A DNA stretch of 64,000 nt, from contig JAFKKG010000021.1 of the NCBI GenBank assembly GCA_017305715.1, positions 62,001-126,000 of the forward strand, written 5' to 3'. Source of the DNA: Hyphomicrobiales bacterium (GTDB lineage Bacteria; Pseudomonadota; Alphaproteobacteria; Rhizobiales; Xanthobacteraceae). The translations under genes and the position numbers were made by a program. Below the pieces are notes generated by a model. That model worked only from the letters and a program-made list of their open reading frames with translations, searched no databases and was not told the DNA's origin. This document shows positions 42,475-62,708 of this stretch, piece by piece (position 1 is the first letter of the stretch; each line of letters starts with the position of its first letter).

Positions 42475-42795
42475 CTAGGCCTGCCGTTCCGGCGTCGAAA
42501 CGACCAGGCCGTCGAGTTCGTCGGAAACCTTGATCTGGCACGACAGCCGCGAATTCGGCCGTACGTCGAAGCCGAAATCCAGCATGTCCTCTTCCATCGG
42601 GGTCGGGGCGCCGACCTTCTCGCGCCAGGCTTCGTCGACATAGACGTGGCAGGTCGCGCAGGCGCAGGCCCCGCCGCATTCGGCTTCGATGCCCGGAACA
42701 GCGTTGCGGATCGCGGCTTCCATCACGGTCGCGCCGTTTTCGACTTCAATGGTTCGTTTTTCGCCGGAATGGTCGACAAAGTGAATTTTGGCCAT
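42475..42795 (-). CDS. [2Fe-2S] adrenodoxin-type ferredoxin
   Basis: 106 residues. Cluster ligands C40, C46 and C49 (C-x5-C-x2-C in [11 protein letters not shown]) and C86 (LSCQIKV). [20 protein letters not shown] is typical of the FdxB/adrenodoxin group. ATG 42795. Electron carrier for cytochromes P450, Fe-S assembly or ring hydroxylases. Confidence 0.93.
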
Positions 42796-42931: not shown

Positions 42932-43309
42932 TCAGGAGCGGCGCAGGACCGCCTCGATCGCCGACCGCGCCAGCGCGACGGCATCGCCCAGTTCGACAAG
43001 CTGGCTGGATGGATCGGCCCCCTCAGCCAGGGCCGCTTCCAGCCGGGCGGAGGCTTCCGCGACACCGAAGGCACCGATCGCCCGGGCCGAGCCTTTCAGC
43101 GTATGGACGAGCGCGCCGGCATCGGCCGGCAGTCTGGCAAGGGCGGTCATCAGCCCGGCCGACTGGGCCGCGAACATCGCCAGCACCTCTTGTTCGAGGC
43201 CGGCATCGTCGAGCGTCATGCGTTTCAGATGGTCGAGGTCGATCGGACCGTCATCGGGAGCGAGCGGCGGCGATGGCATCCATTCTACCCGTTCGAGATG
43301 AAGCGGCAT
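42932..43309 (-). CDS. histidine phosphotransfer (Hpt) domain protein
   Basis: 125 residues. A single Hpt domain with the phospho-histidine motif LVHTLKGSARAIGAFGV and a four-helix pattern. A stand-alone Hpt relays phosphate between a hybrid kinase and a regulator. In Caulobacter the Hpt ChpT feeds CtrA, but this is not clearly ChpT (shorter; no ATPase-like half). It sits opposite a CtrA-boxed gene. Confidence 0.85.
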   Translation of the reverse strand: MPLHLERVEWMPSPPLAPDDGPIDLDHLKRMTLDDAGLEQEVLAMFAAQSAGLMTALARLPADAGALVHTLKGSARAIGAFGVAEASARLEAALAEGADPSSQLVELGDAVALARSAIEAVLRRS

Positions 43310-43508
43310 GGCCTGACCCAAATCTGGCTGCCGGACCGGTCCAGACCGGGCCGTTTGGCCCACCCAATCACGAAACTGGTTAACGAAACGTTTGTGGGAA
43401 TTGCCGTGACTTCGCCTAGTTTTTGCCGAAGAGTTGCCGCAATCGACCGCCTCCCGCTGGAATTCCGAATACCCGTAAGGCCTTAAGCCACAAAGCTGTT
43501 AACGATGA

Positions 43509-43523
43509 TTAAGAATGTCTTAA
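43509..43523 (+). promoter_or_regulatory. CtrA-type box upstream of the giant repeat protein
   Basis: TTAAGAATGTCTTAA is a perfect TTAA-N7-TTAA box, itself palindromic, 173 bases before ATG 43696. The 386-base gap between it and the divergent Hpt gene has no ORF and also holds near-matches (ttaacgaaacgtttg at about 43380; gttaacgatgattaag overlapping the box). Confidence 0.55.
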
Positions 43524-43695
43524 TCGCGACCATTTCATTCGCATCACTCAACCAATAGGATGTTTGCGGATGTAGCGGACAAGCCGCCGACGGGGCGCGG
43601 TTGTGGTCCGTGCGGGGCAAAGGATTCCGGTTGGGGCTTGCGGGGACGTTTGCAAGATCCGCCCGGTGCGTAAAAGTAGAGGGCTCAGACTGAAC

Positions 43696-46600
43696 ATGGC
43701 GAACAATCCCAAGAAGGTCAAAGATCCCACCGAAGTCGCGCTTTCCGCCATTCAGGAGGCGCTCAACATCAGTGATACCGCCGTCGATCCGAACCGGAAT
43801 TCGATCGGCAATGACCTTTCGCCGCCGCCCATTTCGTCCGCGCCTCCGGCCTATTCCGAAACCCCGTTCGATACACGTTCCGGCGTGGACCGCCCGGTGT
43901 TCGATCCGATCGAAGAGCCGCGCTCGCCGCGTCGCGCCGCCAATGACGATCGCGAAACCATCGGTCAAATTCTGCAGGCGATCCAGAAGGGCCGCCCTGC
44001 CCGCGGCGTCTACACGCTCGCCAGCGTTTTCGCCACCGTCTGGGTTGTCGGCTGCATCCTCCTGACCATCAGCTTCCTGCCCTCGCTGCAGGCGGCGATG
44101 GGACAGAGCGGCGGCGTGCTGGTACTGGGCGGCCTTGCCGCGCTGTTCTTTGCACCGGTGCTGCTGTTCTATTTCCTCGCAAGCCTGGTCTGGCGCGGCC
44201 AGGAAATGCGCATGATCGCGCAATCGATGGCGCAGGTCGCGATCCGCTTTTCCGAGCCTGAGGGGGCAGCCTCCGACTCGATGGTGACGGTCGGTCAGGC
44301 GATCCGCCGCGAAGTAGCCGCGATGGGCGACGGCGTCGAACGCGCGATCGCGCGCGCCGGCGAACTGGAAACGCTGGTGGCCAACGAAGTCGCGGCCCTC
44401 GAGCGCGCCTATTCGGACAATGAAGTGCGTATCCGCGCGCTGCTGCAGGACATCGCCCATCAGCGCGACAATCTGGTCGGCCAGGCCGAGCAGGTCCGCA
44501 GCGCCATTTCCGGCGTGCAGATCGACCTGCGCCACGATATCGCGCTGATTTCGGACGCGATCGCCTCGCGCGTCGACGAGGTCGCGAAAAGCATCACCGG
44601 CGCGCTGGAAGAACGCGGCGCCCACATCACCACCGCCCTCAGTCACGCCGGCGACAACATGATTCTCGCGCTCGGCGAGCGCGGCGGCGACCTGCTCGAC
44701 CGCCTCGAGGAGGCCAGCGCCGAGACCACGCGCGCCGTGCTCGACGCCTCCGAGCGGCTGACCACCAGCCTCAACTTCAAGACCGGCCACGTCCATGACG
44801 AGTTCGTCGATCTGGCCGATCGCGTCCACGAGATGCTGAACGAGCGCATCGACCGCATCACCGGCGAGTTCGAACAGCGTTCGTCGACCATCGTCGACGG
44901 CATTTCCGACCGCACCGAACAGGTCCACGACTCCCTGAAGAATTCGTCCGACTCGCTGCTGCTCGAGCTCGAACTGCGCAGCGGCGACCTCGTCAGCAAG
45001 ATCGACGACGCCGGCAACCGCCTGGCGACCCGCATCATGACGTCCGGCGACAAGGCCAGCGACGCCCTCGACGTCACCGTCAACACGCTGGTGGCCAAGG
45101 TGATCAGCCAGACCGAGACCGCGCATGACAGCCTCTCGCTGCAGATGAGCGCGTTCGACGAACTGGTGAAGAACCAGGGCAGCGAACTGGTCGAGAAATT
45201 CGCCCGCGACTCGGGCACGCTCGGCGCCCTGATCACCCGTCACATCTCCGAATTCGACCGCACCGTCAAAACCTTCGGCGGCGACATCGTCGAGCGCATG
45301 GGCCAGCGGACCCAGGAGATCCACGACAGCCTGAAGAACTATGTCGATACCTTCGACACCCGCCTGGTCTCGAACAGCGGCGAGATCACCGCCTCGCTCG
45401 ATCAGCGCCTGCTGCAGTTCGAGAATACGCTGAGCCATCGCGTCAACCACCTCGACAACTCGCTCGACACCAAACTCAAGTCGTTCGACGAGACGGTCGA
45501 CGGCCGCCTGAAGGCGCTGGAGCAGACTTTCGACACCCGCGCCAGGTCCGTGACCGAGACCATCGACAACCGCCTCGGCCTGCTCGGGACCTCACTGACC
45601 GACGGCGCGGCGCAGGCGATCCACTCGATCGACTCACGCCTCAGCGAGCTCACCTCGTCGCTGACCGGAGGCACCGCGCAGGCGATCCAGTCGATCGACT
45701 CGCGCCTTACCAACCTGACCGCCTCGCTGACGCATAACGCAACGCAAGCGGTTGAAGCCGTCGACCAGCGCCTCACCAACCTGACGACCTCGCTGACGGT
45801 GGGCGCGGCCCAAGCGCTCGAAGCGGTCGACCAGCGCCTGTCCAATCTGACGACGTCGCTGACGACAGGCGCGGCGCAGGCCGTCGAAGCCATCGACCAG
45901 CGCCTCACCAACGTAACCACGTCGTTGACGGTGGGCGCTGCCCAGGCGGTCGACGCGGTGGACCAGCGCATTACGGCTGTGACCCAGACGATCGATGGCC
46001 GCAGCGCGCATATGACCGACACCATCACGGCGCGTTTCCTGGATATTCAACAGGGTATCGAAACCCGGGTCGGCGCGATCGCCGGCGACATCGACATGCG
46101 CGTGGCGCAGTTCGAGGATCTGCTCGGCTCGCGCGTCGAGGCCGTGGCCGGCCGTATCGAAAGCAGCGGCCGCCAGGCCAGCGACGATCTCATGGCGCGC
46201 GCGGAGCTGCTGTCCTCGGGCATCCGCTCCCATGTCGAGGACGCCGAGCGCTCGCTCACGAACCTCGTGGTCAACACCTCCGAAACCATCCAGACCGGTG
46301 CGCGCACCGCGCAGCAGGCCCTGCTCGCGGTTTCGACCGACGTCGGCACCCAGTTGCGGCTGACCTCGGCCGAGGTTGAGACCTCCCTCACCTCCGTCGG
46401 CACCGGTGCCGCCAACTCGATCCTCGCCAGCGCCCGCGAGGCCCAGACCACGCTGGTGTCGACCTCCTCCGACGCCGTCTCGCAGATCAAACTGCTGGCC
46501 GCCGATGTCGAGCGCACGCTCACGGCTGCCGGCAGCGCCACCGCAACGTCGGTTCTCTCCGGCGCCCGCGAAGCCCAGTCCACGCTGGTGACGGCGTCTG

Positions 46601-49473
46601 CGGATGCGGCCAATCAGGTCAAGTCGCTTGCCGCCGACGTCGAACGCGCGCTGTCGATCGCCGGTACGTCAACCGTCGAAACCGTCACGGCCGGCGCCCG
46701 CGAAGCCCAGGGCACACTGGCCGCCGCCTCGACCGAGGCCACCAACCAGGTCAGGTCGCTGGTCGACGACGTGCAGCGCTCGCTGTCGATCGCCGGAACG
46801 GCCACCGCCGAGGCCATCACCGCCAGCGCCCGCGAAGCCCAGAGCACGCTGATCAACGCATCCACGGATGCGTCGAACCAGGTCAAGTCGCTGGCCGCCG
46901 ACATGCAGCGCTCGCTGTCGATTGCCGGCACCGCTACCGCCGAATCGATCACCGCAGGCGCCCGCGACGCCCAGAACACGCTGATCAACGCGTCCGCGGA
47001 TGCGGCAAGCCAGGTCAAGTCGCTGGCCGCCGACGTCGAGCGTTCGCTCTCGCTTGCCGGCACCTCCACCGCCGAAACCATCACGTCGGGTGCACGCGAA
47101 GCCCAGACCACCCTCGTCACGGCATCCACCGATGCGGCGAACAAAATCTCGGCACTGGCGGCCGACATGCAGCGTTCGCTCTCGATGGCAGGCAATGCCA
47201 CCGCCGAGTCGATCACGCTGGGTGCCCGTGGCGCGCAGAGCGCGCTCACGACCGCCTCGACGGAAGCGGCCGACCACGTCAAGTCGCTGGCCATCGATAT
47301 CGAACGCACGCTGAGTGCGGTCGGCGCCGGTACCGCCGCTGCGATCCTCGGCACCGCGCGCGAAGCGCAGAGCTCGTTCGCCGCGACCTCGGCTGACGCC
47401 GCGAGCCAGATCAAGGCGATCGCCTCCGACATCGAGCGCGCGCTCGCCGCCGTCACCGCCACCACCACCGACAACATCCAGACCTCGGCGCAGAACGCGC
47501 AGAGCGCGCTGATTGCCGCCTCGAACGAAGTCACCTCCAAGGTCAAGTCGACCTCGGCCGACATCGAACGTTCGGTGCTGGCCGCCAGCAGGAATTTCGG
47601 CTCGACGATGACCGGCAAGACCGACGAAATCGTCACCTACGTTCAGCAGCAGGCCGACCGTCTGGCGCAGATCGTCGACAGCCGGCGCGGTTCGCTGGTC
47701 GAGGCACTCAGCGCCAAGACCACCCAGCTCACGACCGAGCTCGACCGCGTCACTGCCGACAGCCTGAAGTCGATCGAGACCAGGGGCCAGGCGTTCCAGC
47801 AATCGATGGCGACCCAGGGCTCGGAAGTCGCGCGCAATATCACCGCCGCGGGCGACATGGCGACCGGCGCGGTTGCCAAGTCGCTGAAGGACCTCGAGCA
47901 GGCGTCGCGTTCGGCGATCGACCAGTCGCGTCAGGTTTCGATCGCGGCCGTCACCGAGATGCAGGAGACCAGCAAGATCCTGCGCACCGACACGGTTGCC
48001 CTGTTCGAGCGGCTGCGTGAAGGCAACATCCTGCTGCAGGAAGTCCTGACCGGCGCCCACGACAACCTCAACTCGCTGGAACGCGCGCTGGTGACCCGCG
48101 TGGCCGACTTCGTGTCCGCCATGAACGACGTCACCTCGCGCAACGGCGTTGCCACCCAGACCCTGGAAGACCAGCTCACCACCTTTAACACCAAGACCTC
48201 GAAGGCGCTGGCGGACCTCGGTTCGCTGTCGACCGAATTCGAAACCCATGGCAAGGCGCTGATCGATGCCGCGGCGGTCGTCGAACAGGCCAACCGCACG
48301 ACCACGACGTCGGTGGCCGAACGCAAGGCACAACTTGAATCGCTGGTGACCACCATCGATCTGCGCACCACCGACCTCGATCAGCGGCTGTCGCGCTTCA
48401 CCGGCCTGTTGGATGAATCGCTCGCCGCCGCCGAGGAACGCGCCCGCGATATCGCTCGCGTGGTGGCGGAAACCGCAGGTGCGGGCTCGGCTGCGATCAG
48501 CCGCCAGTTCGAAGCGGTTCGTGCTGCGGCCGAAAACGAACGGCACCAGACCATCGACGCGATGAACGAACTGTACCAGCAGAGCAACGCCGAAACCGAA
48601 GCGATGTTCAAGCAGTCGACCGAGAAGTTCGGTGCCATGGTGGTGGCCATGAAGCAGATGGCCTCCGAGATGCACCACGAGCTCGAAGCCACCCGCAACG
48701 AACTGCGCCGCGGCGTGCTGGAAATGCCGCAGGAGGCCGCCGACAACACCGCGCAGATGCGCAAGGTGATCGTCGACCAGATCGAGGCGCTGGCCGAACT
48801 CAACCGGATCGTCGCCCATCATGGCCGCGGCCTCGACGTCATGACGACGAACCGCGCCAGCGTGCAACGCCAGGAAGAGCCGGTGATGGCAACCGCCGGC
48901 GGCCGCAATGACGTGCGCATGCGCGACACCGGCTCGGCGTCGAACCTGCCGCCGCCCGATCTCGGCATGCCGGCGCCGCGCCGCACCGAAGCCCCGCCGG
49001 TCAGTCCGGCGAGCCAGGGCCAGGACGGCGGACGCGATGGTTGGCTGTCCGACCTGCTCAGCCGCACCGACGCAGGCGGTCCGACTGATCGCGAGATTCC
49101 TGCTCCCCGTCCGCGCGCTCCGCAACAGGCCCCGGCCAATCCGCTGGAATCGCTGTCGCTCGACATCGGCCGGCTGATGGACCGCAACCTCGCGGCCGAG
49201 ATGTGGGATCGCTATCAACGCGGCGAGAGCAAGGCCTTCACCAAGCGGCTCTATACGCCGGCCGGCCAGAAGGCGTTCGATGAGGTCGCCCGCAAGTATC
49301 GCGCCGACCGCGGCTTCAAGCAGACGGTCGACCGCTACATCGCCGAGTTCGAACGCCTGCTCGACGAGGTGGCGCGCGAAGATCGCGGCCCGCAGGCGCT
49401 GCGCGGCCACCTGACCTCGGAGACCGGCCTCGTCTACACCTTGCTCGCGCACGCGGCGGGACGGCTGGGGTAA
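43696..49473 (+). CDS. giant membrane-anchored repeat protein, probable GPR/RgsE-type growth pole factor
   Basis: 1,925 residues. Disordered N-terminus (1-100), two membrane helices (about 106-129 and 141-165), then about 1,500 residues of amphipathic helix. Residues about 623-776 are seven 22-residue repeats (pattern VDQRLTNLTTSLTVGAAQAL); residues 857-1296 are ten 44-residue repeats (pattern AGTATAESITAGARDAQ onward). Both are multiples of 11, like apolipoprotein A1. A Pro-rich linker leads to a conserved C-terminal helical domain (DIGRLMDRNLAAEMWDRYQR ... AFTKRLYTPAGQKAF). Size, topology and repeats match the Growth Pole Ring protein of Agrobacterium (about 2,100 residues) and RgsE of Sinorhizobium, needed for polar growth. 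Identity by architecture only. Confidence 0.75.
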   Translation: MANNPKKVKDPTEVALSAIQEALNISDTAVDPNRNSIGNDLSPPPISSAPPAYSETPFDTRSGVDRPVFDPIEEPRSPRRAANDDRETIGQILQAIQKGRPARGVYTLASVFATVWVVGCILLTISFLPSLQAAMGQSGGVLVLGGLAALFFAPVLLFYFLASLVWRGQEMRMIAQSMAQVAIRFSEPEGAASDSMVTVGQAIRREVAAMGDGVERAIARAGELETLVANEVAALERAYSDNEVRIRALLQDIAHQRDNLVGQAEQVRSAISGVQIDLRHDIALISDAIASRVDEVAKSITGALEERGAHITTALSHAGDNMILALGERGGDLLDRLEEASAETTRAVLDASERLTTSLNFKTGHVHDEFVDLADRVHEMLNERIDRITGEFEQRSSTIVDGISDRTEQVHDSLKNSSDSLLLELELRSGDLVSKIDDAGNRLATRIMTSGDKASDALDVTVNTLVAKVISQTETAHDSLSLQMSAFDELVKNQGSELVEKFARDSGTLGALITRHISEFDRTVKTFGGDIVERMGQRTQEIHDSLKNYVDTFDTRLVSNSGEITASLDQRLLQFENTLSHRVNHLDNSLDTKLKSFDETVDGRLKALEQTFDTRARSVTETIDNRLGLLGTSLTDGAAQAIHSIDSRLSELTSSLTGGTAQAIQSIDSRLTNLTASLTHNATQAVEAVDQRLTNLTTSLTVGAAQALEAVDQRLSNLTTSLTTGAAQAVEAIDQRLTNVTTSLTVGAAQAVDAVDQRITAVTQTIDGRSAHMTDTITARFLDIQQGIETRVGAIAGDIDMRVAQFEDLLGSRVEAVAGRIESSGRQASDDLMARAELLSSGIRSHVEDAERSLTNLVVNTSETIQTGARTAQQALLAVSTDVGTQLRLTSAEVETSLTSVGTGAANSILASAREAQTTLVSTSSDAVSQIKLLAADVERTLTAAGSATATSVLSGAREAQSTLVTASADAANQVKSLAADVERALSIAGTSTVETVTAGAREAQGTLAAASTEATNQVRSLVDDVQRSLSIAGTATAEAITASAREAQSTLINASTDASNQVKSLAADMQRSLSIAGTATAESITAGARDAQNTLINASADAASQVKSLAADVERSLSLAGTSTAETITSGAREAQTTLVTASTDAANKISALAADMQRSLSMAGNATAESITLGARGAQSALTTASTEAADHVKSLAIDIERTLSAVGAGTAAAILGTAREAQSSFAATSADAASQIKAIASDIERALAAVTATTTDNIQTSAQNAQSALIAASNEVTSKVKSTSADIERSVLAASRNFGSTMTGKTDEIVTYVQQQADRLAQIVDSRRGSLVEALSAKTTQLTTELDRVTADSLKSIETRGQAFQQSMATQGSEVARNITAAGDMATGAVAKSLKDLEQASRSAIDQSRQVSIAAVTEMQETSKILRTDTVALFERLREGNILLQEVLTGAHDNLNSLERALVTRVADFVSAMNDVTSRNGVATQTLEDQLTTFNTKTSKALADLGSLSTEFETHGKALIDAAAVVEQANRTTTTSVAERKAQLESLVTTIDLRTTDLDQRLSRFTGLLDESLAAAEERARDIARVVAETAGAGSAAISRQFEAVRAAAENERHQTIDAMNELYQQSNAETEAMFKQSTEKFGAMVVAMKQMASEMHHELEATRNELRRGVLEMPQEAADNTAQMRKVIVDQIEALAELNRIVAHHGRGLDVMTTNRASVQRQEEPVMATAGGRNDVRMRDTGSASNLPPPDLGMPAPRRTEAPPVSPASQGQDGGRDGWLSDLLSRTDAGGPTDREIPAPRPRAPQQAPANPLESLSLDIGRLMDRNLAAEMWDRYQRGESKAFTKRLYTPAGQKAFDEVARKYRADRGFKQTVDRYIAEFERLLDEVAREDRGPQALRGHLTSETGLVYTLLAHAAGRLG
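45562..46023 (+). repeat. seven in-frame 66-bp repeats (22 residues)
   Basis: Units begin at 45562, 45628, 45694, 45760, 45826, 45892 and 45958, each starting I/V-D-x-R-L and ending QAx-x-A/S; the last is degenerate. Middle units are close enough at DNA level to recombine. Confidence 0.85.
46264..47583 (+). repeat. ten in-frame 132-bp repeats (44 residues)
   Basis: Units start at 46264, 46396 and every 132 bases to 47452. Core pattern AREAQSTL ... QVKSLAADVERSLS. Units 4-7 are the most alike; the outer ones have diverged. No indel breaks the 44-residue register across all ten. Confidence 0.85.
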
Positions 49474-49668: not shown

Positions 49669-50565
49669 CTACTGCCGCTTCTGTCCGCTCGCCGCCGCAG
49701 GCGGCCTGGCCGGCCTGGCTGGTGGCGGTGCCGCCGCGGGCTCGGCCGGCGCGGCGTTGTTGCTGCCACCAAAAATCACCCGGCTCGGATTGCGGTCGAA
49801 ATTATTCACGGCGCGGCTGATGTCGGCGAGCGTGCGCCGGCCGTCGGAAATCAGCAGGTTCGTGCGCTTGTCGAGACCGTCAGCCAGTTCGCGGATCGAC
49901 TTCACCATCGTGTTCAATTCGCCGCCGGCGGTGCCGCCCGCGATGGTGTTGAGGCCGAGCATGAGATTGTCGGCCTTGCCCATCACGCCGTCGACCTTGA
50001 GCATCACGTTGTCGATCTTCTCGGAATTGCGCGCCAGCGCTCCGGTGAAGGTCTCGAGGTTTCGCAGCGAGTTCTTTACGGATTCCTGGTTGTCGGCGAC
50101 GATCCGGTTGACGTTTTGCAGCGTGGCGCGGATCGACTCGGTAACGTCCTGCAGTGCTGCCGGATCGGCGGTCAGCACGGGAACGCCGTCCTCGTCGAGC
50201 GGCACCGGGGGCGCTGCCTCATCGCCGCCCTTGAGCGAGATCGCCGCCACGCCGGTCAGCCCCTGGAACTCGAGACCGACCAGGGTGTCTTTGCGGACCG
50301 GGGCGTTGTTCTCGATCATCGCCAATGCGACGACGCGACGCGGGTTGTCCAGCTTCACGCGGACCACCTCGCCTACCCGGATACCGTTAAAGTTGACACT
50401 GCCGCCATTTCGCAGGCCGGTCGCCGGCCCCTCGAAAATCACCCGCAGCGGGCTGCGCGCCTTGGTCGCGTGCAGGCTCTGGAACCAGAGCACGAAACCG
50501 AACGCCGCGGCGATCACCGCCAGCGTAAAGGCCCCGATCAGGACGTAATTCGCCCGCGTTTCCAT
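49669..50565 (-). CDS. mlaD: MlaD/MCE-family lipid transport protein
   Basis: 298 residues. One N-terminal membrane anchor (NYVLIGAFTLAVIAAAFGFV), an MCE domain (RVIFEGPATGLRNGGSVNFN, GIRVGEVVRV, GLTGVAAISLKGG), a helical region and a Pro/Ala-rich C-terminus. It forms the periplasmic ring of the Mla ABC transporter that moves phospholipids between membranes. ATG 50565 follows aggag. Last gene of mlaE-mlaF-mlaD; no mlaC follows. Confidence 0.92.
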   Translation of the reverse strand: METRANYVLIGAFTLAVIAAAFGFVLWFQSLHATKARSPLRVIFEGPATGLRNGGSVNFNGIRVGEVVRVKLDNPRRVVALAMIENNAPVRKDTLVGLEFQGLTGVAAISLKGGDEAAPPVPLDEDGVPVLTADPAALQDVTESIRATLQNVNRIVADNQESVKNSLRNLETFTGALARNSEKIDNVMLKVDGVMGKADNLMLGLNTIAGGTAGGELNTMVKSIRELADGLDKRTNLLISDGRRTLADISRAVNNFDRNPSRVIFGGSNNAAPAEPAAAPPPARPARPPAAASGQKRQ

Positions 50566-50574
50566 CAATTACTC

Positions 50575-51345
50575 CTACACCACGACGGAGCGGGCGCGCT
50601 TGCCATTGAAATACTGATTCAGCCAGGGATGCTTCGATGCCTTCATGTCGGCAATCGATCCTGCTGCAATGATCTTACCGTTCCCTAAAACGGCGATGCG
50701 GTCGCAAGCCGTATAAAGGCTGTCGAGGTCGTGGGTTACCATGAAAACGGTCAGCCCCAAAGTACGCTGCAGGGTGCGGACGAGCTCGTCGAAATCGCCG
50801 GCGCCGATCGGATCGAGACCGGATGTCGGCTCGTCCAGGAACACCAGTTCGGGATCGAGCGCGAGCGCGCGCGCCAGCGCGACGCGCTTGATCATGCCTC
50901 CGGACAGTTCCGAGGGAAACCTGTCGGCGACCTCGGGCTTCAGGCCGACCATGCCGAGCTTGGCGACCATGACCTCGTCGAGCAGGCGTTGCGAGAGGTT
51001 GAGATATTCACGCACCGGAAACTGGATATTCTGCCGCACGGTGAGCGAGGAGAACAGCGCGCCCTGCTGAAACAGCACGCCCCAGCGCCGCTCGACGCCG
51101 CGCCGCTCGGCCGTAGAGGCCCTGTCGAGATCGACGCCGAACACTTCGATGCTGCCGGCGACCTTGGGCACGAGCCCGATGATGGTGCGCGTCAGCACCG
51201 ATTTTCCCGCGCCCGACGGGCCGACAAATCCCAAAATCTCGCCGCGCTTCACGTCGAGATTGAGCCCGTCGAGAATCCGTGTCTTGCCGAACTGCACGGT
51301 GATGTCGCGGACCCGGATGATGGCGTCGGAGATCTCGCCCGCCAT
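50575..51345 (-). CDS. mlaF: MlaF ABC transporter ATPase
   Basis: 256 residues. Walker A GPSGAGKS, Q-loop LFQQGALFSS, signature LSGGMIKRV, Walker B ELVFLDEPTSGLDP and H-loop VTHD are all intact. ATG 51345 lies two bases after the mlaE stop; GTG 51351 would overlap it. Energises the MlaE permease. Confidence 0.95.
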   Translation of the reverse strand: MAGEISDAIIRVRDITVQFGKTRILDGLNLDVKRGEILGFVGPSGAGKSVLTRTIIGLVPKVAGSIEVFGVDLDRASTAERRGVERRWGVLFQQGALFSSLTVRQNIQFPVREYLNLSQRLLDEVMVAKLGMVGLKPEVADRFPSELSGGMIKRVALARALALDPELVFLDEPTSGLDPIGAGDFDELVRTLQRTLGLTVFMVTHDLDSLYTACDRIAVLGNGKIIAAGSIADMKASKHPWLNQYFNGKRARSVVV

Positions 51346-51347
51346 GG

Positions 51348-52490
51348 TCACATTCCGATCGATGCGAAGAAGATGGCGAACACGCCATCCATCACGATGA
51401 CGAAGAAAATTCCCTTCACCACCGACGACGTGGTGTGCTGTCCGAGCGATTCAGCGCTGCCCTGCACCGCAAGCCCCTCGACGCAGGCCACGATACCGAT
51501 CACTGCGGCCATCACCGGCGCCTTGATGATGCCGACGATGAAATGATCGATCGATATCGCATCGCGCAAGCGCAGCAGGAAAGCTTCGGGATCGACGCCG
51601 CCATAGAGATACGCCACCAGGCCGCCGCCATAGAGCGCGGCCATCGCACCCAGGAACGCCAGGATCGGCAGCGCCAGCACCAGTGCCAGCATGCGCGGCA
51701 GGATCAAGACCTCGATCGGATCGAAGCCCATGGTGCGCAGCGCATCGATTTCCTCGCGCATTTTCATCGAGCCGAGTTCGGCGGTGTAGGCCGAACCCGA
51801 ACGGCCCGCCACCATGATCGCCACCAGCAACACGCCGATTTCGCGCAGCACCAGCACGCCGAGCATGTCGACCACGAAAATATCGGCGCCGAATTTGCGG
51901 AAGTGGAAGATGCCCTGTTGCGAAATGATGCAGCCGATCAGGAACGTGATCAGCACCACGATCGGCACCGCGCGCCAGCACACCTGCTCCATATGATGGA
52001 TGGTCGAGGTCAGACGGAAACCGCGGGGGCGAATCAGGACATGGCCGGCCGCCGCCAGCACCGCGCCGAGCATCTCGATCAATCCGACCAGGGTGCCACC
52101 GACGCCGGCCACGCTGCGGCCGATCTGCTCCAGCATGCCCGTGATCGTCACCGAACGGGTCTCGACCACAGGCTCGGCCTTGATCCGGCGCACCTCGTCG
52201 ACGAGGCTTGAATAATTGGCCGACAGGCCGGCGATCTTGGCCTCGATCCCGCCATCGGCGAGGCTGCGGCGCAGACGCTCGATCAGCCAGGCGCCGAACG
52301 TATCGAGTTTTGAGACCTGCGAGACGTCGATGAAGATATTCGGGCGGCTGCCGCGGAGTTTTTCGGCGTCGGCCACCATCTTCTCGAGTGCCGGGGCAAA
52401 GCGGGCCGTCCACGAACCCGCCGCGCACAGCGCGAGCCCATTGCCTTGCGCAATCCGCTCCAGCGTCGGATCGCCGCTCACGATGCCCAC
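51348..52490 (-). CDS. mlaE: MlaE-type permease with N-terminal STAS domain
   Basis: 380 residues. Residues 1-110 form a STAS-like domain (FIDVSQVSKLDTFGAWLIER), a role played in E. coli by the separate MlaB subunit. The rest is the permease, with MVAGRSGSAYTAELGSMKM and MREEIDALRTMGFDP as in MlaE/YrbE. The fusion explains the absence of mlaB. Confidence 0.93.
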   Translation of the reverse strand: MGIVSGDPTLERIAQGNGLALCAAGSWTARFAPALEKMVADAEKLRGSRPNIFIDVSQVSKLDTFGAWLIERLRRSLADGGIEAKIAGLSANYSSLVDEVRRIKAEPVVETRSVTITGMLEQIGRSVAGVGGTLVGLIEMLGAVLAAAGHVLIRPRGFRLTSTIHHMEQVCWRAVPIVVLITFLIGCIISQQGIFHFRKFGADIFVVDMLGVLVLREIGVLLVAIMVAGRSGSAYTAELGSMKMREEIDALRTMGFDPIEVLILPRMLALVLALPILAFLGAMAALYGGGLVAYLYGGVDPEAFLLRLRDAISIDHFIVGIIKAPVMAAVIGIVACVEGLAVQGSAESLGQHTTSSVVKGIFFVIVMDGVFAIFFASIGM

Positions 52491-61577: not shown

Positions 61578-62708
61578 CTATTCCCAATTCAACGCCCCGC
61601 CGTTCTGGTATTCGATCACGCGGGTCTCGAAGAAATTCTTCTCCTTCTTCAAATCCATCGCTTCCGACATCCACGGGAACGGATTCTCGGCTTCATCGAA
61701 CACGCGTGCCAGTCCGAGCTGGGCGCAACGGCGGTTCGCGATGAAGTGCATGTATTGTTCGCACAGTGCGGCATTGAGGCCGAGGAAGCCGCGCGGCATG
61801 GTGTCCCGCCCGTAAGCGGCTTCCAGTTCGGCAGCGTTCCGAACCATATCGCGGATCTCGTCCTGGAACGCCCTGGTCCAAAGATGCGGGTTCTCGATCT
61901 TGATCTGGTTGATGACGTCGATGCCGAAATTCAGGTGAATGGATTCGTCGCGCAGGATGTACTGGTACTGCTCGGCGATCCCCACCATCTTGTTGCGGCG
62001 GCCGAGCGAGAGGATTTGCGCGAATCCCGTATAGAACCACATGCCCTCGAAGATCACGTAGAAGGCGACGAGGTCGCGCAGGAATGCCTGGTCGGCTTCC
62101 GGCGTACCGGTCTTGAAATCAGGATCGTCGAGATGCTGGGTGTGCTTGATCGCCCATGCCGCCTTGTCGGTGATCGACGGCACCTCACGGTACATGTTGA
62201 ACAGCTCGCCTTCATCGAGGCCGAGGCTCTCGACGATGTACTGGAAGGTGTGGGTATGAACCGCCTCCTCGAAGGATTGCCGCAGCAGATATTGCCGGCA
62301 TTCCGGATTGGTCAGATGACGGTAGATCGCCAGCACGATGTTGTTGGCGACGAGGCTTTCGGACGCGGCGAAGAAGCCGAGGTTGCGCTTGATGGCGCGG
62401 CGCTCGTCCTCGGTCAGGCCGTCGCGCGATTTCCATAGCGCGATATCCGCCTGCATCGAGACTTCGGTCGGCATCCAGTGATTGTTGCAGCCGGCGAGGT
62501 ATTTCTCCCACGCCCATTTGTATTTCAGCGGCAGCAATTGATTGACGTCGGCGCGGCAGTTGATCATCCGCTTGTCGTCGACCGACACCCGGCCGCCGCG
62601 GCGGTCGATGGTGCCGGGCCCGGTTTTGCCGGTTTCGGCAAGAGATGGCGCTACAAGGGGCGGCGGGACGTGGTGGGCGGGCGCCGAAGGTTCGGACCAG
62701 TCAAGCAT
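61578..62708 (-). CDS. nrdB: class Ic ribonucleotide reductase small subunit
   Basis: 376 residues. Metal ligands E117 (AASESLV), E148 and H151 ([10 protein letters not shown]), E221 (FEGMWF), E255 and H258 (DESIH). The residue at the E. coli Y122 position is F155, and the first ligand is Glu where E. coli has Asp84. Spacing (31 between the first two Glu, then +3 and +7) equals that of Chlamydia R2c (E89, E120, H123, F127), which uses a Mn(IV)/Fe(III) cofactor instead of a tyrosyl radical. It follows nrdA by 25 bases. Confidence 0.9.

Follow-up and report, generated by a model that had tools for sequence, protein, structure and literature searches.

The RgsE/GPR family and the window gene

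RgsE (SMc00190) of Sinorhizobium meliloti is a published growth and shape factor. According to the portions of PMC7327166 that were available, RgsE is 42% identical to GPR of Agrobacterium, and its homologues are found in all Rhizobiales families, with distant ones in Emcibacterales and Rhodospirillales. In publications, GPR (Atu1348) is given a pair of membrane segments at its N-terminus, about 1,700 helical residues and the PF01442 family, and its C-terminus is required for function. The accessible sections of PMC8262873 present GPR as a continuous helix with apolipoprotein similarity, and report that complementation was blocked when 221 or 332 C-terminal residues were removed.

We analysed a stretch of 64,000 nucleotides from a Hyphomicrobiales bacterium (assembly GCA_017305715.1, contig JAFKKG010000021.1, forward-strand positions 62,001 to 126,000), hereafter the window, which carries a large gene of this type. 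The features considered below are as follows, in window positions.

42475..42795, minus strand: 2Fe-2S ferredoxin, Fer2 (PF00111)
42932..43363, minus strand: Hpt-domain phosphotransfer protein, divergent neighbour (PF01627, 30.5 bits, cut-off 24.6)
43696..49473, plus strand: GPR/RgsE-type scaffold gene, 1,925 aa (open frame, matched once in its genome, both ends homologous to RgsE)
44005..44199, plus strand: two membrane segments, residues 104-136 and 137-168 (hydropathy)
44368..47997, plus strand: hendecad rod with near-constant 11/3 phase, about residues 225-1434 (phase per 66-residue window)
45571..46032, plus strand: seven 22-residue repeats, residues 626-779 (autocorrelation, register)
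46252..47571, plus strand: ten 44-residue repeats, residues 853-1292 (autocorrelation, register)
48949..49143, plus strand: proline-rich linker, residues 1752-1816 (proline positions)
49141..49470, plus strand: conserved C-terminal domain, residues 1816-1925, predicted all-helical (conservation, model)
49669..50568, minus strand: MlaD-like protein, convergent neighbour (PF02470)
50575..51351, minus strand: ABC transporter ATPase between mlaD and mlaE, in the MlaF position (PF00005)
51348..52490, minus strand: MlaE-like permease (PF02405)

The scaffold gene reads from ATG at 43696 to TAA at 49473 (1,925 codons), and AGAGGG precedes the ATG; an in-frame GTG at 43603, if used as the start, would lengthen the product to 1,956 aa. 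Its codon-position G+C (0.66/0.49/0.86) was typical of a coding frame. No opposite-strand frame covered the whole gene, the longest being of 927 aa (46669-49452) and 655 aa (43483-45450), and one mirror frame on the opposite strand contained three stops when translated.

The first-pass annotation had called the product a counterpart of GPR and RgsE, and its non-repeat ends were indeed homologous to S. meliloti RgsE, with 40% identity at the N-terminal end (E 2e-31) and 44% identity at the C-terminal end (E 3e-44). The identification is also backed by the upstream gene order, since Fer2 and then Hpt, both directed away from the scaffold gene, are common to the window and S. meliloti Ak57. Note that the reference was LZK74_25975 of strain Ak57 (record CP090106.1, locus L126), which is annotated as 'kinesin' and whose length, 2,089 residues, equals that of RgsE in the part of PMC7327166 available. 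The two proteins share the membrane pair, a hendecad-rich coil, the C-terminal domain, and Fer2 and a divergent Hpt upstream; they differ in length (2,089 and 1,925 aa) and in the peak of their coil periodicity (98.5 and 98.25 deg for RgsE and the window protein, respectively). GPR, which was compared through RgsE and papers alone, is 2,115 aa long. As judged by sequence, the window gene is supported as the local orthologue of RgsE, and it adds a member to a family that, in the accessible text of PMC7327166, is already known across Rhizobiales. In the same genome, two frames matched the MreB profile PF06723 above its cut-off, one of 667 residues with 61 bits and one of 429 residues with 27.6 bits; by their size, we take both for other actin-fold proteins.

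The internal layout that had been read from the translation likewise held up. Hydropathy gave the two N-terminal membrane helices, and autocorrelation recovered both repeat arrays: lag-22 self-similarity over residues 621-800 had a z of 19.0, and lag-44 self-similarity over residues 881-1380 a z of 29.7, each against shuffles of the same segment. When the arrays were written in register, the last of the seven 22-mers and the outermost of the ten 44-mers were seen to be diverged; at a 40% identity threshold, the main arrays amounted to 7.4 and 9.8 copies. At the DNA level, 7 of the 10 window 44-mers resembled a copy in L033, a near relative, more closely than any paralogue, and the same was true of 4 of the 10 in comparison with each of L032, L035 and L036. 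Evidence for concerted evolution of the 44-mers is mixed, with partial homogenisation. Within 46252-47571, some middle 44-mers were nearer in DNA to their own neighbours than to the copies in three congeners, and the outer ones were not.

Hendecad periodicity and the nature of the rod

Bulky aliphatic residues of the window protein peaked at 98.25 deg per residue, i.e., 3.66 residues per turn, which is close to 11/3. The power at this angle was 98.8, whereas none of 300 shuffles exceeded 10.3 and the heptad angle had a power of 0.3. When examined in 66-residue windows, the phase stayed between 111 and 161 deg from residue 225 to residue 1434, and then broke. Over residues 196-1300, one hendecad position was 97% ILVMF, another was 55% ILVMF and 30% Ala, and a third was 73% Ala/Gly/Ser/Thr; the protein has both the 11/3 periodicity and the 4-3-4 spaced core by which a hendecad coiled coil is recognised. 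The term hendecad was absent from the papers listed by a literature search, the GPR and RgsE papers among them, and a strict 11/3 hendecad with near-constant phase over about 1,200 residues appears new, as it was not seen in that literature.

We consider it probable that the gene encodes a polar-growth scaffold, orthologous to GPR and RgsE, which consists of a membrane hairpin, a hendecad coiled-coil rod and a docking C-terminal domain and has a link to Hpt. The two-helix hairpin would anchor the scaffold in the inner membrane, and it would be followed by about 1,200-1,500 helical residues bearing the narrow hydrophobic 11/3 stripe that is seen in the sequence. The stripe most likely gives right-handed hendecad coiled coils, in which several copies may pair into a rod some 180-230 nm long, if each residue adds 0.15 nm. 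The proline-rich linker would carry the C-terminal domain, which most likely docks growth machinery; since this domain is without a solved relative, docking is drawn from published work in other species, in which S. meliloti RgsE contacts RgsA, RgsS and TolQ. Finally, the Hpt protein may connect the scaffold to a phosphorelay.

A different possibility, which we regard as unlikely, is that the rod helix lies on the membrane in the manner of an apolipoprotein and organises lipid at the pole. A lipid role was proposed for Agrobacterium GPR in the available part of PMC8262873, and MlaD-like lipid-transport genes were found downstream in 75 of 135 relatives. In addition, PF01442 was the only Pfam family above its cut-off on the window protein (8 stretches, 194 bits; cut-off 90), and phmmer matched apolipoprotein A-IV with E 2.3e-6. 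However, both matches probably arise because of the 11-residue repeats, as any repeat of that length may match PF01442. Lipid-binding apolipoproteins have prolines between their 22-mers and a broad apolar face. Neither property was found in the rod: residues 196-1735 contained two prolines, a net charge of -69 and 2.3% Lys, and the apolar stripe was narrow. The coil charge was negative in 127 of the 128 coils measured and zero in the remaining one. Thus, apolipoproteins A-I and A-IV are like the window protein in their 11- and 22-residue repeats and in PF01442, whereas the window protein has almost no proline, a narrow stripe, a negative charge and a membrane anchor. The earlier comparison with apolipoprotein A1 therefore stands for repeat length and is probably misleading for mechanism. 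Composition favours a coiled-coil rod as the predicted architecture, and a lipid-lying helix ranks second. As the main mechanism, an apolipoprotein-like lipid coat was rejected on the composition of the rod.

A single-sequence model of six 44-mers (264 residues) was of too low a quality for use (mean pLDDT 51.3), and its helix broke about every 44 residues; such breaks in a poor model would be compatible with hairpins or with a rod that has joints.

The position of the peak differed between the window's order and others. In the same-order set (n = 40), peaks lay at 98.25-99.75 deg in all 37 loci measured and at or below 99 deg in 35 of them; L034, L046 and L048 were excluded from this measurement, as they have no membrane segment to serve as an anchor. 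Among the 20 other-order loci, 19 were measured (L140 was excluded), with peaks at 99.5-101.25 deg and none at or below 99 deg. Within the best 80 of 364 confirmed loci, 21 of the 22 named Parvibaculum-type loci were measured and all peaked at 100.25-101.25 deg, while 47 of the 58 further named loci (three of which are duplicates of other loci) were measured and gave 33 at or below 99 deg, 8 at 100 deg or more, and 6 with values in between. Coil length alone does not explain the angle, since L143 has a 1,318-residue coil at 101 deg and L134 a 1,679-residue coil at 99.5 deg.

These angles were then mapped onto a C-terminal-domain tree (78 rows kept of 83 picked, 20 from the 80 named loci; 118 columns), which was weakly resolved and gave long-branch warnings. 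The label 'peak below 99.9' required 5 changes, compared with 24.8 in shuffles, and none of 500 shuffles was as low. Forty-one of the 46 labelled rows formed one group (89/65 support), in which every row is hendecad and both RgsE and the window protein are included; L062, L173 and L224 were unresolved beside it, and L134 (99.5) and L170 (99.0), whose angles are near the boundary, fell outside it among unlabelled rows. This grouping and the small number of changes make it likely that the low-angle peak arose once.

The C-terminal domain, distribution of the family and other readings

The C-terminal domain had been noted as conserved, which agrees with our survey: the C-terminal 176 residues had a match in 190 of the 199 sampled genomes of the order. 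A 110-residue relative of the domain was matched in 197 of 199 genomes of a Rhizobiaceae-like family, which includes genomes of 1-1.5 Mb and whose member L047 groups with RgsE (100/92 support). Across the class, a 15-sequence profile found the domain in 140 of 385 genomes, and a 32-sequence profile in 155 of 387 genomes sampled at a completeness of at least 90%. Sphingomonas parapaucimobilis (774 aa) and Parvibaculum are among the named members from beyond the window's order; note that the latter belongs to Hyphomicrobiales according to NCBI and is counted here as another order following the genome collection. In a contig scan, the best 80 of 364 confirmed loci were of the Parvibaculum type, from other Alphaproteobacteria and from Rhizobiales. 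Relatives on plasmid records were from Sinorhizobium, Shinella and one Sphingomonas only. A class search with PF01442 gave matches in 6 of 58 genomes at E 1e-5, the window genome included, and none above the cut-off; since this search scored stretches apart, by which the window gene itself fell below the cut-off, it is no fair negative.

In 63 loci chosen for the C-terminal domain, the predicted proteins had 716-2,887 residues. By our own hydropathy threshold, at least two membrane segments were present in 52 loci, one in 7, and none in 3, i.e., L034 (broken), L046 (at a contig end) and L048; L140 is a fused frame. The scaffold frame was short or broken in L034, L176 and L204, which may be assembly error. 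In family f120, four sampled genomes of 0.9 Mb had two C-terminal-domain matches each, and in family f74 a weak match (G641:C3:412762-413130) lay in a 330-residue frame, which may be a shortened version that lacks the long rod.

AlphaFold2, run on 68 aligned sequences (of 79), predicted seven helices for the domain, with a mean pLDDT of 74.3 and a pTM of 0.66. Profile searches gave no convincing solved relative (best E 0.092), and Foldseek with the model gave 89 matches at E up to 10, of which the best had 0.5 and none reached 0.001. The deletions of 221 and 332 residues in GPR mentioned above would cover the counterpart of this domain. The present comparison gives testable handles on how polar growers mark and build one tip, among them the conserved C-terminal domain, for which no solved relative was found, and the rod periodicity that differs between the window's order and others.

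These data can be arranged into a broader picture, which we offer as tentative and somewhat doubtful. GPR/RgsE may be the Rhizobiales branch of a wider alphaproteobacterial polar-scaffold family, possibly including TipN and tied to a dedicated Hpt protein. In the lineage of the polar growers, the coil, which peaks near 100.5 deg in other members, would have been remade through repeat expansion as a right-handed hendecad rod of more than 1,000 residues in one register, a change accompanying the shift to tip growth.

A narrower proposal is that the window protein is itself a TipN-type landmark for polarity and chromosome segregation instead of a growth scaffold. TipN of Caulobacter, compared by description only, is shorter than the window protein (882 aa); according to publications, it is a membrane protein that marks the new pole and has a large coiled coil in the cytoplasm. 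Among the other-order loci that were read, many relatives had this layout at a length of 716-1,201 aa, and the parts of the papers available to us mention GPR-TipN similarity (PMC8546619) and call TipN analogous (PMC13170164). However, publications on the orthologue RgsE describe a factor of growth and shape, and we find this proposal improbable. No locus named Caulobacter was present among the best 80 of 364 confirmed loci.

The first-pass annotation had further suggested that the number of repeats determines ring size at the pole, for which we see very little likelihood. Rod length does vary widely, coils spanning 511-2,454 residues across 37 same-order loci, with several-fold differences in the order. 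On the other hand, a ring diameter was given in the literature seen for Agrobacterium only (200 nm), and lengths differ little within the genus (1,822-1,970 aa in four unbroken orthologues, the fifth, L034, being broken). Least credible of all is that the matches are coincidental ones to a generic long coil such as a ZorA-like tail, since the ends and the upstream genes are those of RgsE and the weak ZorA match (E 0.0045) scored 16 bits against a cut-off of 500; a relation to ZorA was ruled out on this score and on the RgsE-like non-repeat ends.

Genes beside the scaffold gene

For the scaffold gene understood as the RgsE orthologue, we examined the flanking genes of its relatives. An Hpt profile was built in four rounds on the same loci, seeded with the window and S. 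meliloti Hpt sequences at E 1e-4. An Hpt-like frame lay within 2.5 kb upstream in 101 of the 121 loci with at least 1.5 kb of upstream sequence. When three duplicate loci were dropped, Hpt was divergent in 96 of 118 relatives, on the same strand in 2 (L040, and L143 with a 781-residue frame) and absent in 20; note that these counts include named loci from the best 80 of 364 confirmed. By set, divergent Hpt was found in 30 of 38 same-order loci, 8 of 20 other-order loci, 56 of 58 named loci and 2 of 2 plasmid-record loci. The loci counted as lacking it are L037, L039, L048, L054, L057 and L070 in the same order, eleven from other orders (L132-L140, L145 and L146), L204, and the broken frames L034 and L176, in which Hpt lies further upstream.

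Pfam agreed on Hpt for 39 of 42 sequences submitted (of 102). The phosphoacceptor histidine was present in 99 of the 102 copies, the window's among them; the exceptions were L141, L142 and the Sphingomonas record, which these two loci resemble. In the 7.45 Mb of the window genome, only five matches to PF01627 were found, so that the closeness of Hpt is not expected by chance, with the proviso that related loci are not independent. Among loci with at least 2.5 kb of flank, an upstream Fer2-like frame was present in 30 of 31 from the same order and in 48 of 84 over all sets.

We found no literature link of Hpt to the growth pole ring, TipN or RgsE, and the available part of PMC9022086 makes none; a divergent Hpt beside the scaffold gene over several orders appears new, as it was not seen in the literature searched. 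This arrangement suggests that a phosphorelay may act on or through the scaffold, or that Hpt may share the scaffold's regulation. An Hpt gene kept beside the scaffold gene over several orders is a further testable handle on tip growth and could link the scaffold to cell-cycle signalling.

On the other side, no paper joining MlaD or MlaE with GPR or RgsE was among the matches listed, and MlaD-like genes downstream of the scaffold gene also appear new, not having been seen in the literature searched. Of 135 loci, 75 had a MlaD-like frame in the 4.5 kb downstream (24 of 40 in the same order), and 68 had a MlaE-like frame there. S. meliloti Ak57 had no MlaD- or MlaE-like frames downstream of rgsE; IS110 and cytochrome bc1 genes are found there, where the window has mla. 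The Ak57 record CP090106.1 (3.72 Mb) is labelled pSymB yet carries rgsE and the cytochrome bc1 genes, and the label looks wrong.
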